From: Spirochaetota bacterium
Lineage (GTDB): Bacteria > Spirochaetota > GWB1-36-13 > JAKPDD01
DNA: 64,000 nucleotides
NCBI GenBank assembly: GCA_029552945.1
Contig: JAKPDD010000032.1
Location: forward strand, 206,377-270,376
Direction of reading: 5' to 3'
Shown: piece by piece, positions 1-59,195 of the stretch
Layout of the letters: every line of letters starts with the position of its first letter
Numbering within the stretch: the first letter of the stretch is position 1
Translations under genes and position numbers: made by a program
Notes under the pieces: generated by a model
What the model saw: the letters and a program-made list of their open reading frames with translations, nothing else
Told to the model about the DNA's origin: nothing
The model's database searches: none

Positions 1-1083
1 AATTCTCCTATAAATATCAAGGTCATCTCTTTTATATTCAAAAACTTCGACATTGGTATATTCTAGTTCTGGATTTATAATACCGTAAGAAGTAAGGTTT
101 GTTTTCATAAAAGATATTGAGTTCATCAATAATCTGCCTCTATACGTAATATTAGCACCAGCCATATTATATCCTGCTATTCTACCCTGTTCAGATGCAG
201 AGACCCATATAGGCCCAAGCCTTTTTGAGCCATAAACAATGTCATAACATTCAGTAACATCGCCCGCAGCATAAATATCTGAAACTGATGTTTTCATCAT
301 ATCATCTACAATAATACCAACATTAGTTTTTATTTCTTTATCTATGAAAGATATTTCTGGCTTTACACCTATTGCTATTATTACAGCATCAATATTTATT
401 GTATTTCCTGATTTTAAGACAGCTTTTTCAACTCTGTTTTTCTTTATTTTAAAAGAATCAACTGTATCTTCAAGAAATAGTCCAACATTATTTTTCTCAA
501 GTTCTTTATGAAAATAGTATGAACCATAATCATCAATAACAGTAGGCAATACTCTTTTGGAAAGCTCTGCAATATATACATTTTTACCCCTCATAACAAG
601 AGCCTCAGCAGCTTTTATACCAATAAGACCACCACCAATAATAAGTACATTTTCTATTGTATCTATAATAGACTCAAGTTTTTCCATATCAGCCCATTTT
701 ATAAAGGTCATTACATTTTCTTTTGTAAGATATTCCTTATATGTAGGGGGGACAAATGGAGTTCCACCACTTGCAATTAAAAGTTTATGATAACCTATAG
801 AAGAACCATCAGATATTTTAACAGTTTTTGATTTACTGTCTATTGATATTGCTTCTTTACCAAGTAATACCTTTATATTATTTTCTTTATAAAACTCAGG
901 CCTTCTTAGGTACATATCCTCTTTTTTTACAATACCAGCTATCTGATATGTAATAAGAGGCCTTCCATAAGCATATTGATCTTCTTTAGAAATTATTATT
1001 ATCTCTCTATCTTTATCATACTTTCTTATTCCCTCACAAGCTGCAATAGCAGCAGGTCCATTACCTATAATCACATAACTCAT
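1..1083 (-). CDS. FAD/NAD(P)-dependent oxidoreductase, 3' end beyond window
   Basis: The minus-strand frame is open from an ATG at 1083 to base 1, giving 361 residues without a stop, so the C-terminus lies outside the window. The N-terminal FAD-binding Rossmann loop GNGPAA sits at residues 7-12. A second, NAD(P)H-binding loop GGGLIG lies near residue 150, and the FAD-closing motif AAGDV near 270. This is the rubredoxin/nitrite-reductase-like pyridine nucleotide-disulfide reductase family. It is the last visible gene of the split glutamate synthase operon, 2 bases after the 4Fe-4S gene. By inference it passes electrons from NAD(P)H through that Fe-S protein to the synthase core. The exact electron donor is not visible. 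Confidence 0.88.
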   Translation of the reverse strand, partial: MSYVIIGNGPAAIAACEGIRKYDKDREIIIISKEDQYAYGRPLITYQIAGIVKKEDMYLRRPEFYKENNIKVLLGKEAISIDSKSKTVKISDGSSIGYHKLLIASGGTPFVPPTYKEYLTKENVMTFIKWADMEKLESIIDTIENVLIIGGGLIGIKAAEALVMRGKNVYIAELSKRVLPTVIDDYGSYYFHKELEKNNVGLFLEDTVDSFKIKKNRVEKAVLKSGNTINIDAVIIAIGVKPEISFIDKEIKTNVGIIVDDMMKTSVSDIYAAGDVTECYDIVYGSKRLGPIWVSASEQGRIAGYNMAGANITYRGRLLMNSISFMKTNLTSYGIINPELEYTNVEVFEYKRDDLDIYRRI

Positions 1084-1085
1084 GT

Positions 1086-1538
1086 TTATTCACCTCGTTC
1101 TTCAAAAACTATAGCTCTATTTGGGCAAGCCTCAACACAGGCAGGCCCTCCCTCTCTTTTATTACATAAATCACATTTTACTATCTGTTTTCTTTCTTTC
1201 CTATTAAGATCTTTCATAATCGCCCCATAAGGACATGCCATTATACATGAATAACAACCAACGCACTTAGCCGGGTCATATAATATTTTGCCTGATAGAT
1301 CTTTATATAAAGCACCTGATATACATGCATTAACACAATCTGGTTCTTCACAATGTCTGCACGTATTAGCAAATGAGATATTGCCCTTTCTCTCAACAAT
1401 TATTCTCGGTGTCTGTCTTACTTTTTCGAAAAAATACGATATAACTGGGTGTTTACTCTCTGAGTGCTCAATAGCACAAGCAACCTCGCATCTTCCACAC
1501 CCAACACACCATTCTTCTCTAAAATAAAGTTTCTTCAT
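1086..1538 (-). CDS. 4Fe-4S dicluster-type electron transfer protein of glutamate synthase
   Basis: This 150-residue protein resembles HycB/DmsB-type ferredoxin subunits. Four cysteine groups are visible: CVGCGRCEVAC near the N-terminus, CRHCEEPDC, CVGCYSCIMAC, and a final CDLC with a distal CVEAC. That is enough for up to four [4Fe-4S] clusters. It has no signal peptide, so it is cytoplasmic. It lies between the glutamate synthase core gene (4-base gap) and the FAD oxidoreductase gene (2-base gap). The inferred role is to wire the flavoprotein to the synthase. Such a subunit accompanies several archaeal-type glutamate synthases, but the specific partner here is inferred from position only. 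Confidence 0.85.
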   Translation of the reverse strand: MKKLYFREEWCVGCGRCEVACAIEHSESKHPVISYFFEKVRQTPRIIVERKGNISFANTCRHCEEPDCVNACISGALYKDLSGKILYDPAKCVGCYSCIMACPYGAIMKDLNRKERKQIVKCDLCNKREGGPACVEACPNRAIVFEERGE

Positions 1539-1542
1539 CTAA

Positions 1543-3066
1543 TTATGCTCCTGCTGGTTTTATTCCTAAAATAGACAAATAGGGTTCATGAATATCAACA
1601 GCTCTAAGGTTAAGTCTATTACCCCTTAAGCTTCCTATAGAATTTATACCCATTGCACCAAGCATTTCCTGTATCTCATGTTTCCACCCTTTAAGTAGAT
1701 TTTTAGCTCTTTCAGCTCCTATCTCAGGATTTAGCCTTTTTGTAAGGTCATCTCGTTGAGTTGCAATTCCCCAATTACATATCCCTTTATAACACATACC
1801 ACAAACATGGCAGCCGAGAGTCATTAATGCAGCAGTTCCTATATATACAGCATCAGCCCCAAGAGCAATCGCTTTTATCACATCAGCACTATTTCTAAAC
1901 CCACCCGCTGCTATAAGTGACGCATGATTCCTTATACCCTCTTTTCTTAATCTTTCATCTACAACAGCAATTGCAAGTTCTATCGGAATACCGACATTGT
2001 CTCTGATTATCTTAGGAGCAGCACCTGTTCCACCTCTTATACCATCTATGACAACAGCATCCGCCCCAGCTCTTACTATACCACTTGCTATTGCAGCAAC
2101 ATTATGGACAGCTGATATTTTAACAAAAACTGGTTTTTCATAATCAGTTGCCTCTTTTATTGAGTAAATAAGTTGTCTTAAGTCTTCTATAGAGTATATA
2201 TCATGATGTGGTGCAGGTGATATAGCATCAGAACCCTCTGGCATAGCTCTTGTAACAGAGATTTCATGATTAACTTTTTCACCTGGTAAGTGCCCACCTA
2301 TACCAGGTTTTGCTCCCTGTCCTATTTTTATCTCAACAGCCGCACCAGCTTTCAGATAATCAACATGAACTCCAAATCTACCGGATGCAACCTGAACAAT
2401 AGTATTTTTGCCATATTTATATAGGTCTTTATGTAACCCCCCTTCCCCAGTATTCCAAAAAGTACCCATTTCAGATGCAGCTTTTGCTAATGACTTACAT
2501 GCATTTAAACTTATTGCACCAAATGACATAGCAGCAAACATTATTGGAACTTCAAGCTCCAATTGAGGAGTTATTCTCGTCTTTATCTCAGGTTTATGAT
2601 TTTTATCAAAAACAACCTCTATTTTATCAGGCTTACTCCCTAAAAATGTTTTTACTTCCATTGGCTCTCTTAAAGGGTCAATAGAAGGATTTGTTACCTG
2701 AGATGCATTAAGTACTATTTTATCCCAATAGACTGGATGCGGCGTTGGTGCTCCCATACCAACAAGTAATACTGTACCATTTTCTGCCTGTTCATAAAGA
2801 TCCATCATTCTCTCTTTTGTCCAGTTATAATTAGGCCTATAAGGATTTTCAGCCTGTTTTATTCTTATTGCATTTGTTGGGCATATTGCAACACATCTAC
2901 CATCGCCAACACAGTTATGATTTATACCAAGCACTTTGTCTTTCTCTTCAAGATAATAATGTGCATTATATGCACACTGTTGGACACACGCACCACACCT
3001 GATACATCTTTCGTCATCTCTTTCTATTATAAAGTTTTCAGGTTTTAAAGAAAAAGTAAATTTCAA
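1543..3066 (-). CDS. gltB: Glutamate synthase core subunit (FMN/Fe-S synthase domain), archaeal type
   Basis: The 507-residue protein carries the synthase reaction, 2-oxoglutarate plus ammonia plus electrons to glutamate. Residues about 17-60 form a two-cluster ferredoxin (CIRCGACVQQC and CVGDGRCVAIC). The rest is an FMN-binding Glu_synthase barrel with GTGAAPKI, the phosphate-binding AAGGFRNSADV, and a cluster motif CHVCGMC that continues to CNWGIATQ. In E. coli GltB this barrel is one domain of a roughly 1500-residue protein. Here the GATase and GXGXG domains are separate upstream genes, as in archaea and some anaerobic bacteria. The GXGXG gene ends 11 bases upstream. This part of the operon is intact. 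Confidence 0.95.
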   Translation of the reverse strand: MKFTFSLKPENFIIERDDERCIRCGACVQQCAYNAHYYLEEKDKVLGINHNCVGDGRCVAICPTNAIRIKQAENPYRPNYNWTKERMMDLYEQAENGTVLLVGMGAPTPHPVYWDKIVLNASQVTNPSIDPLREPMEVKTFLGSKPDKIEVVFDKNHKPEIKTRITPQLELEVPIMFAAMSFGAISLNACKSLAKAASEMGTFWNTGEGGLHKDLYKYGKNTIVQVASGRFGVHVDYLKAGAAVEIKIGQGAKPGIGGHLPGEKVNHEISVTRAMPEGSDAISPAPHHDIYSIEDLRQLIYSIKEATDYEKPVFVKISAVHNVAAIASGIVRAGADAVVIDGIRGGTGAAPKIIRDNVGIPIELAIAVVDERLRKEGIRNHASLIAAGGFRNSADVIKAIALGADAVYIGTAALMTLGCHVCGMCYKGICNWGIATQRDDLTKRLNPEIGAERAKNLLKGWKHEIQEMLGAMGINSIGSLRGNRLNLRAVDIHEPYLSILGIKPAGA

Positions 3067-3077
3067 GGGTTAATCTC

Positions 3078-3902
3078 CTAATAGTATTTTTTTTCTATAT
3101 CAATTTTTTTATTTGAAAAATAATTTTCTTCTGGCAATGGGAAATGATTACCAGGTGAATATAATCTTCCATAAGGTCTCTTAGAAACAGGTATAAGTTT
3201 TATAAACCTTGATTTTAATATGTCTTCTGCTTTGTATTCTTTAAACTCCTGGCAGAACTCTTCTATAAGAGACTTTAATTTTTCTTTATCACTTTCATTA
3301 AGTTCAAAAATTTTAACTTCTTTACCAAGGTATGTTGGTATTTTTTCTGTTCTAATATATATAACTCCGCCATGCATACCTGTTGCACAGTATCGACCAA
3401 CTATTGGTTTATCATCATTATTAAGACCGAGCACAACCCCTATTCCACCAGCCATATACTCACCAAAAAAATCTCCGGCCTTACCACCAACAACAATTGA
3501 AGGTATCATATCCTTATATTCTTTCATATGGATCCCAACTCTATATCCAACATTCCCTTTTATAAAAATTTTGCCATTTCTCATACCATAACATATTACA
3601 TCCCCAGCATCTCCATGAATAAAAACCTTACCATTATTCATAGTATTACCAACTCCATCCTGAGCATTTCCAAAAACTTTTACTGTTGGTCCATCCATAA
3701 ACATAGCAAGGTCATTTCCAGGTACACCAGATTCAATTATTATTTCCACGTCTTTTTCTTTAAGCCCTGTGCCTATAAACCTTTGTCCCCTTGCATTCTT
3801 TATAATTACCTTTTTTATACCTTCTTTTCTTACAGCCTCTTTTATTTTAAAATTGAGTTCTCTATAATATAAATTCAGAGCATCTATTGTAATAGAATTC
3901 AT
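3078..3902 (-). CDS. Glutamate synthase GXGXG-domain subunit
   Basis: This 274-residue protein corresponds to the C-terminal GXGXG beta-helix domain of GltB, which has a structural role in holding the other domains. The repeated glycine-rich turns are visible: GNAQDGVGNTM, HGDAGDV, KGNVGYRVG, GGKAGDFFGEYMAGG and a late GMHGGVIYIR. The gene starts 2 bases after the stop of the GATase gene and is followed by the core synthase gene. No catalytic residue is expected. Similar beta-helix domains occur in formylmethanofuran dehydrogenase subunit C, but the neighbours decide for glutamate synthase. Confidence 0.93.
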   Translation of the reverse strand: MNSITIDALNLYYRELNFKIKEAVRKEGIKKVIIKNARGQRFIGTGLKEKDVEIIIESGVPGNDLAMFMDGPTVKVFGNAQDGVGNTMNNGKVFIHGDAGDVICYGMRNGKIFIKGNVGYRVGIHMKEYKDMIPSIVVGGKAGDFFGEYMAGGIGVVLGLNNDDKPIVGRYCATGMHGGVIYIRTEKIPTYLGKEVKIFELNESDKEKLKSLIEEFCQEFKEYKAEDILKSRFIKLIPVSKRPYGRLYSPGNHFPLPEENYFSNKKIDIEKKYY

Positions 3903-3904
3903 AT

Positions 3905-5016
3905 TTACTCCCCTTTATAATCATTATAGAAAATAAAAACAGGCTCTCCGGCTTCTGGATGATAAACCCTATCAATTTTATCACATACTTCAAGAACAGA
4001 AGATTCTTCACTTGAAAGGTAAACCGTATTGCCAGACTCAACAACAACAAGTGGTCTTAGTTTTATTCTGTCTGAAAGGCCTATAAGTCCACCATTAAAA
4101 CCTATAATAAAAGCAAAAGGGCCATTCAATAACGCTGATCCATATACAATTCTTAATGTTTTATAATACTCTTTTAATTTAATATCTTCCATGTTCTGAA
4201 TAACATCCCAAGTAGGTGGTGAAAATATATCACATACAGTTTTAAAAGGTAAACCATGTTTTCTTACAAGAAGATCCACAAGATAGGCAACAACTTCAGT
4301 ATCTGTAAGCATTGTACATTCATAACCAAACATTTCTACATATCTTTTATTTATACCGTAAGAAGATAATTCACCGTTGTGCACAATAGAAAAGTCAAGT
4401 AATGTAAATGGGTGAGCCCCACCCCACCAGCCAGGTGTATTTGTAGGAAATCTGTTATGTGCTGTCCATGCATAAGCTTTATAATTTTCTAACATAAAAA
4501 ACTTTGAAATATCTTCAGGGAAACCTACACCTTTGAATGCACCAAAGTTTTTACCACTTGATACTACAAAAGCACCTTCTATATTTTTATTTATATAAAC
4601 CACTCTATTTACAACATAATCCTCTTCAGTTAGTAATGATAAGCTACCTGTCTTTTTATTATCAACAATTTCTATAAAATATCTGTAATGTAAAGGTGAT
4701 GATTTTATCTCAGGGATCTGTTTGGTTGGTATCTCTTCCGCCTTTATAACTCTAAAATAATTATTCAAAAATAACTCTGTCTCTTCTTTTGCTTTATTAT
4801 GTTCATACATTAGATGAAAAGCATATTTGTCTTCATAATCCGGGTAAAGTCCATATACTGCAAATCCGCCTCCAAGACCATTCCCTCTATCATGCTGGTT
4901 AGCTATAATCTTTGTTATAAGGCTACCATCAACTCTTTTTTTGTCTTTATTAATAATCCTGCTAAACCACAGTTTGATATATCTTTCTCTGGAAATAAAA
5001 GATTATTTTTAAACAT
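3905..5016 (-). CDS. Glutamate synthase glutamine amidotransferase (class II) subunit, apparent frameshift near the N-terminus
   Basis: This subunit releases ammonia from glutamine for the core synthase. An uninterrupted frame runs only from an ATG at 4810 (301 residues), but the conserved start lies upstream. ATG 5016, with an AGGAG 10 bases before it, opens a frame reading a short propeptide and then CGLAG, whose Cys16 would be the nucleophile after processing. That frame hits a stop near 4917. The continuation, with VDGSLITKIIANQHDRGNGLGGGF, is in the -1 frame and runs into the 4810 frame. The switch can occur anywhere from the bases just after CGLAG to the A7 run at 4938-4944 (one base missing). 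Later class II features include TAHNRFPTNTPGWWGGAHPF and VHNGELSSYG. Corrected length is about 370 residues. Confidence 0.85.
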
Positions 5017-5205
5017 ATTATTTTTGCTCCTGAATATTAGAAGTATAAAATTAGATATAAAATTTAATTTATAATAGACTATTTTATGAAATAATTTATT
5101 TGAAAATAAATAAAAATAAAATAATTTAAATTTTGTTTTTTATAAATTTTATTATTTTTTAAATATATTATTTATTTTAATATAAAAATTTTTAGTGGTA
5201 AATAG

Positions 5206-57937: not shown

Positions 57938-58039
57938 GTTATTTTTTAGTTTTCTTACTATTTTAATTTAATATCATTTTTAGCTAAATTATATAATTAT
58001 AATTTAATATATTAATTATAATAAACCAGGGAGGTTATA

Positions 58040-58336
58040 ATGGAGTTTAACGAAATTTTTAAAAAGTTTATGGAAACAGCAATAGGACTTGGCACAACTG
58101 CTGCGGAAAAAATGTTTGATTTTGCAGAAACAATGGCTGAAAAAGGAAAAGCATTCAAAGAAGAGAAAAAACCAGAAATTGAAGAATTTATTAAAAACTG
58201 GAAGTCAAAGTTTCAGGAAACAACAGAAAACCTTCTTAAAACATTAAAAATAAAAGATGAAAGAATTGACAATTTAGAAAAAAAAGTAGCAGAACTTGAA
58301 AAACAGGTAGAAGACCTTAAAAACAAAATTAAATAA
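58040..58336 (+). CDS. Small phasin-like coiled-coil protein
   Basis: The 98-residue protein has an amphipathic helical N-terminal half (FMETAIGLGTTAAEKMFDFAET) and a C-terminal coiled coil with heptads (KDERIDNLEKKVAELEKQV). It resembles phasin-like or PhaF-type small proteins, but no polyhydroxyalkanoate genes are in the window. Ribosome binding site GGGAGG precedes the ATG at good spacing. Cytoplasmic, probably oligomeric; function is not assigned. Confidence 0.75.
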   Translation: MEFNEIFKKFMETAIGLGTTAAEKMFDFAETMAEKGKAFKEEKKPEIEEFIKNWKSKFQETTENLLKTLKIKDERIDNLEKKVAELEKQVEDLKNKIK

Positions 58337-58514
58337 CAACCACAAAAAGACTTTTAAAAAAGTATTTAAGGTCTCCAAAATAAAAATTAACTGGGAAATA
58401 GACGATTTTATAAGTTTAGCTTACTCTTTTAATTATGAGACTTTAGAAAAAACTAGATTAAATCAATTCGCTATTTGTTTTGATAACTTTTTAAATAACG
58501 ATCTAACACTTATA

Positions 58515-59195
58515 ATGAATTTTATAAAAGATCCAAAATTCTATGAATACAGTTTATATGCTGGTTTTATTCCAATGTACAATACAATAAATTTAATTTT
58601 TAAAGGAAAGCCATGGAAAAAAGAATATACTTTACTCAAAATACATAAAAAAAGAGCTGTCCTTTTTTTTGAAGATTTAGTAATTCATAAAACAACAAAA
58701 AAGAAATCTCAAAAATATATACTTACAATTGATAAAGATTTTAATAGTGTTTTTGAAAAAACTAACTCCTATCATATTAAAAAAAATAACTTTTGTTGGT
58801 TTTCAGAAAGCTTGAAAAATGCTATCTCAAGTTTAATCAAAAAATCAAAGAAGTTAGCATCTTTTCATTCAATAGAACTATGGAATAAAAACACTGGTGA
58901 AATTGTTGCAGGTGATATAGGGGTAGTAATAGGCTCAAGATATCTTAGCATGACAGGTTTCTATTCTGAAAACGGTTCAGGCTCTGTTTTATTAGTGTTT
59001 CTAGGTAAAGTCCTTCAAAAATTAGGAATAAAAGCCTGGGATTTAGGAATGGACCTACCCTATAAAAGAGATTTGGGAGCAAAACTACTTCAAAAAAATA
59101 CCTTTTTAGAAATTGTTGAAAAAACGAGAAATCAAAAAATCAATTTTAAAATAGACAGGTATGAATATTCTGATTTTTTAAAAGATATTAAGTAG
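58515..59195 (+). CDS. Leucyl/phenylalanyl-tRNA-protein transferase-like protein
   Basis: The 226-residue protein carries the LFTR core: YAGFIPMY, SIELWNKNTGEIVAGDIGVVIGSRY, SMTGFYSENGSGSVLLVFLGKVLQKLGIKAWDLGMDLPYKRDLGA. Aat adds Leu or Phe to N-terminal Lys/Arg for N-end-rule degradation. The ATG at 58515 has no ribosome binding site. The same frame is open upstream to about 58308 with coding-like sequence but no ATG, GTG or TTG, so the true start may be unusual or upstream of a lesion. Confidence 0.75.
   Translation: MNFIKDPKFYEYSLYAGFIPMYNTINLIFKGKPWKKEYTLLKIHKKRAVLFFEDLVIHKTTKKKSQKYILTIDKDFNSVFEKTNSYHIKKNNFCWFSESLKNAISSLIKKSKKLASFHSIELWNKNTGEIVAGDIGVVIGSRYLSMTGFYSENGSGSVLLVFLGKVLQKLGIKAWDLGMDLPYKRDLGAKLLQKNTFLEIVEKTRNQKINFKIDRYEYSDFLKDIK

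Follow-up and report, generated by a model that had tools for sequence, protein, structure and literature searches.

Frame break after the presumed catalytic cysteine of a split glutamate synthase amidotransferase gene in a Spirochaetota genome: a probable accidental one-base loss

The window (the whole 64,000-nucleotide stretch of DNA that was analysed) carries on its minus strand an operon in which a frame-broken glutamine amidotransferase gene, referred to here as gltB1, stands with the genes for two further subunits of a split glutamate synthase, the GXGXG subunit and the FMN core. The features of the locus are as follows.

5027..5031, minus strand: AGGAG, ten bases ahead of the ATG at 5016 and probably its ribosome-binding site (sequence).
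3905..5016, minus strand: gltB1-type gene, class-II glutamine amidotransferase subunit of split glutamate synthase, frame-broken (GATase_2, 1.2e-08; 41 homologous open reading frames).
4915..5016, minus strand: zero-frame open reading frame of 33 codons, with a short propeptide-like N-terminus and CGLAG (sequence).
4969..4971, minus strand: TGT codon, presumed catalytic N-terminal cysteine of CGLAG (cysteine in 41 of 41 homologous open reading frames).
4957..4959, minus strand: GGA codon, last glycine of CGLAG, with the best-scoring frame change directly after it (HMM junction scan).
4936..4942, minus strand: run of seven A (A7), a formal A_AAA_AAA heptamer (sequence).
3905..4957, minus strand: -1-frame part, the rest of the subunit (translation, Pfam).
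3078..3902, minus strand: GXGXG-domain subunit gene (gltB3-type), intact (Pfam GXGXG, 3.6e-35).
1543..3066, minus strand: FMN/Fe-S core subunit gene (gltB2-type), intact (Pfam Glu_synthase, 1.5e-139).
1086..1538, minus strand: ferredoxin-like 4Fe-4S protein of the operon (sequence, Pfam).
1..1083, minus strand: FAD pyridine-nucleotide oxidoreductase-like gene, named by reading, extending past the window start (the same gene as L058 10165-11460, minus strand).

Translation from the ATG at 5016 opens with MFKNNLLFPEKDISN and CGLAG, the full start being MFKNNLLFPEKDISNCGLAG. The zero frame gives MFKNNLLFPEKDISNCGLAGLLIKTKKELMVAL and ends at the TAA stop at 4917-4915, while the -1 frame is open from 5002 until its stop at 3905 and reads ...IINKDKKRVDGSLITKIIANQHDRGNGLGGGF.... 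The remainder of the subunit, to 3905, is in the -1 frame and matches class-II glutamine amidotransferases, with a GATase_2 score of 34.6 bits for this part against the Pfam cut-off of 19.9. The presumed catalytic cysteine is thus in the zero frame and the domain in the -1 frame, and the two are not joined in one frame. Family matches on both sides show that the break is not a chance reading, and the frame switch after the catalytic cysteine, as the original prediction described it, is present in the sequence. The start resembles those of split glutamate synthase amidotransferase subunits, for instance ...YGEKDTSGCGLIGF in locus L002, which share the N-terminal cysteine after a short leader and the QHDRGNGLGGGF motif. 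The gene order gltB1-gltB3-gltB2 is also the same in L002, L003 and L005; these relatives differ from gltB1 in that none is frame-broken after CGLAG.

Of the phylum's 392 genomes, 54 gave matches at E 1e-20, the genome of the window among them. The original prediction proposed a comparison with orthologous genes, and in all 41 homologous frames compared the cysteine motif and the domain are in one frame (36 by pattern, 5 by eye). These 41 are the frames of at least 200 residues matching at E 1e-20 in loci L002-L057; outside the set stand L017, truncated at a contig end close to which it has a stop, the weak-match loci and matches beyond L002-L057. The nearest relatives, in L002, L003 and L005, are about 55% identical to gltB1, so a recent lineage-specific site could escape this comparison. 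The class was represented by two genomes, and the one other than that of the window gave only a weak 34% match. A GTDB scan gave two relatives in Endomicrobiaceae (52-53%), an IMG/VR scan gave no relative of gltB1, and among solved structures there was a single weak match, the GlmS amidotransferase. Separately, the glutamate synthase core gene in another genome (G056) is frame-broken at L008, around 3466, as its matches lie in two frames.

The intact neighbours compare with L002, L003 and L005 at 62% identity for gltB3 and 45% for gltB2 (over 202 residues). A decayed pseudogene was considered and rejected: there is a single lesion, the rest of the gene is open, and its identity to relatives is comparable with that of the neighbours. 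The GXGXG and FMN/Fe-S core genes, with their Pfam matches, are intact, as the original prediction had stated for the rest of the operon.

To place the frame change, a profile was built from 36 relatives and a -1 step was tried at each position from codon 10 to codon 33. The score is highest, at 525.5 bits, when the step directly follows GGA, the last glycine codon of CGLAG; a junction at A7 reaches 519.1 bits, 6.4 lower. The best break is therefore near 4957, 14 bases before A7. With five sets of relatives and two weightings, the upstream junction always scored better, its margin over A7 ranging from 4.4 to 20.8 bits; restricting the set to the four closest relatives moves the peak one codon later. 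Ahead of A7 the -1 frame reads IINKDKK and the zero frame LLIKTKK. Relatives carry, for example, IINTDKR or FIHRDGR at this place, and the -1 reading is the closer one in 34 of the 36 (97 identities versus 21), the exceptions being L007, which favours the zero reading, and L013, which ties; at the first place of the LLIKT segment L occurs in none of the 36, nor does I at the third. A simulation drawing residues from the family columns overstates the certainty of the placement, which rests on the profile scans and identity counts.

Since the family follows the -1 frame even upstream of the run and all profiles agree, A7 is probably not the site of the base loss. Loss of a base within A7 itself, which would still be an accident and overlaps the best explanation, gains in prior probability from the finding, given below, that five of six other breaks in the assembly lie at A/T runs. 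Such a loss would, however, give LLIKT at residues 6-10 from the cysteine, unlike the family, and every profile prefers the upstream junction; we regard it as unlikely.

The run does form a slippery heptamer of the X_XXY_YYZ type in the zero frame (ACA AAA AAA GAG). The original prediction was right about this phase and two positions off in placing the run at 4938-4944; it lies at 4936-4942. It had further considered a programmed -1 frameshift here, which would fix the level of amidotransferase with respect to the core. The formally correct heptamer and an AGGA 14 bases upstream speak for such a shift, but the AGGA belongs to the conserved codons of the cysteine motif, and A_AAA_AAA is common: it occurs in frame 146 times in 157,884 coding nucleotides and in 78 of 150 sampled genes, with about 0.08 expected by chance in the 88-nucleotide overlap of the two frames. 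None of the 41 homologous frames, of which the nearest are about 55% identical, shares the break or a shift site, and neither the profiles nor the 36 relatives show the family keeping to the zero frame as far as the heptamer. The 70-base stretch that begins with A7 folds worse than shuffled sequences (z 0.87), and a wider region around the run folds like them (z -0.19). Downstream structure is not required at every programmed shift site. Programmed -1 frameshifting of the dnaX type uses an A-rich heptamer, and gltB1 shares one in the right phase; it differs from the dnaX type in having neither a conserved site nor a significant downstream fold, and in that the family reading switches before the heptamer. 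A literature search found no described ribosomal frameshifting in glutamate synthase and no gltB frameshift pseudogene, although a printed case may exist. Conservation, the junction profile, the frequency of the heptamer and the fold all led us to reject a programmed shift at A7 maintained by selection, and we consider it extremely improbable.

The reading that we prefer, with a probability of about 0.88, is that of an ordinary gltB1 gene broken by an accidental net loss of one base between the last glycine codon of CGLAG and A7, rather than a programmed frameshift. The break itself, its placement from the family and its lack of conservation are results; that the break is accidental, and which kind of accident it was, are inferred. 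No glutamate dehydrogenase (PF00208) was found in the genome by a search that matched 14 of 14 control genomes, 12 of them over the cut-off. The genome has one glutamine synthetase (PF00120) and one full-length core (PF01645), and no second gltB1 copy able to substitute was found in it at E 0.001. Glutamate synthase thus apparently has no route other than this operon, and from the domain counts a true loss of gltB1 would be costly, although a strain taking up glutamate could lose the gene. If the mutation were real and unrescued, the cell would make a 33-residue peptide and no glutaminase subunit, leaving a core that might use free ammonia at best.

Alternatively, a base genuinely lost upstream might be partly compensated at A7, by -1 slippage of the ribosome or by RNA polymerase adding an A. 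This would yield little enzyme, with the segment after CGLAG altered to LLIKTKK in place of IINKDKK, and the restored protein would still score 519.1 bits with the family profile. The run is in the right phase and ahead of the zero-frame stop, the apparent lack of another glutamate synthase route would favour rescue, and there are precedents. A cassette of seven A gave 10% frameshifting in E. coli (PMC3711429), and AT-rich endosymbionts are known to rescue broken genes through A tracts (PMC5009743 and PMC3017870): in aphid and ant endosymbionts, 12-50% of transcripts are corrected via slippage at long A runs (PMC5009743), and for Blochmannia vafer genes broken in long A runs, rescue is discussed as possible (PMC3017870). 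The Buchnera and Blochmannia cases of these two papers share with gltB1 an AT-rich genome, an otherwise intact gene and an A run near the break. They are long runs, however, PMC3017870 counting tracts of 9 or more, whereas the gltB1 run has only seven A, its break is placed outside the run, its genome is 1.87 Mb, and the break is known from one genome. In E. coli constructs A_AAA_AAA is also far less shifty than A_AAA_AAG, according to the review PMC5009743. No fold stands out at A7, and as A_AAA_AAA occurs in more than half of the sampled genes, an A run near the break needs no explanation. Partial rescue of this kind seems to us decidedly unlikely. Very unlikely, too, is a real indel in the only glutamate synthase amidotransferase that is tolerated through leaky ribosome or RNA-polymerase slippage at A7, as one instance of this AT-rich genome generally tolerating -1 breaks at A/T runs.

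To set the break in context, 835 kb of the same genome were surveyed by codon usage. At least six other -1 breaks were found; five of them lie at A/T runs 6-9 long and the remaining one at a TA repeat, and A/T runs of at least 6 hold 3.7% of coding bases. Pfam was run on five of the six, which are listed below.

L062 9360-10123, plus strand: xylose-isomerase-like protein, frame-broken (Pfam support complete).
L064 2372-3693, minus strand: NuoF-like subunit, frame-broken (Pfam support complete).
L071 8554-10094, minus strand: MASE3 histidine kinase, frame-broken (Pfam support complete).
L072 4967-6276, minus strand: SpoIIE-type phosphatase, frame-broken (Pfam support one-sided).
L081 4378-4700, minus strand: protease Prp, frame-broken (Pfam support one-sided).
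L109 9425-10173, plus strand: membrane-protein-like gene, frame-broken (codon-usage survey and reading).

The survey flagged 18 borders (22 in an earlier form with looser flags), of which 6 were judged to be breaks inside genes and 8 to be ordinary neighbours or non-AUG starts, while 4 were assigned to neither class (window 58394, plus strand; L094, minus strand; L108, plus strand; and L092 14486, minus strand); the border at L065 was likewise assigned to neither class. The six breaks and gltB1 all shift to -1, but the direction is weak evidence because 8 of the 12 other flagged borders share the same phase. In simulations the survey found 37 of 40 mid-gene breaks and 7 of 40 at codon 20; with detection this poor near gene starts, it missed the gltB1 break and undercounts the total.

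Several of the borders involve unusual gene starts. At L102 5929-6456 (plus strand), an infC-like frame (IF3, by reading) has no ATG, GTG or TTG near the expected start, and AAGGAGG followed by ATA ATA makes a non-AUG start likely; infC of E. coli has a non-AUG start. A motility-factor-like gene (by reading) at L094 916-2343 (minus strand) has no usual start codon and overlaps the end of the preceding gene, the border reading GGATTAAAG and resembling the gltB1 break. The ispE-like gene (by reading) at L065 6481-7350 (minus strand), after a serine acetyltransferase-like gene, has no clear start codon. In the window, at 58024-59195 (plus strand), a phasin-like short open reading frame is followed by a frame whose coding signal precedes its first usual start codon.

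Scaled up, the 7 breaks in 835 kb correspond to about 16 per genome. Breaks at A/T runs arise from sequencing and from replication slippage alike. True pseudogenes number 12-136 per truth genome in PMC8011154, and as 16 is within this normal count, the number cannot separate error from mutation. Lone frame breaks validated by BLASTp are expected to be sequencing errors, according to PMC3711429, and the GeneTack singletons described there resemble gltB1 in occurring in a single genome, with intact relatives and no conserved shift site; no difference was found between these singletons and gltB1, whose cause would be error or mutation. Unlike most of the other breaks, the inferred one has no long homopolymer at its site, which is therefore atypical for an error; a real mutation, or a break at A7 after all, may accordingly be the case.

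For the gene being otherwise undamaged and apparently on the only route, an error in the assembled sequence is favoured and somewhat probable; that the strain sequenced truly acquired the mutation recently is possible, and we think it the less likely of the two. With the profiles placing the break upstream and the relatives intact, the one-base loss or assembly error that had been put forward as the simpler reading is the one we favour: gltB1 appears to be an ordinary frame break, with assembly error preferred over recent mutation or leaky rescue.

A perfect slippery heptamer next to a break in frame can seem convincing, yet such heptamers are ubiquitous at 29% GC, and family reading can put the break away from the adjoining heptamer. 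Were the sequence true in the living cell, gltB1 would be a case of frame rescue at a short run, in a central nitrogen gene and outside the insect endosymbionts.
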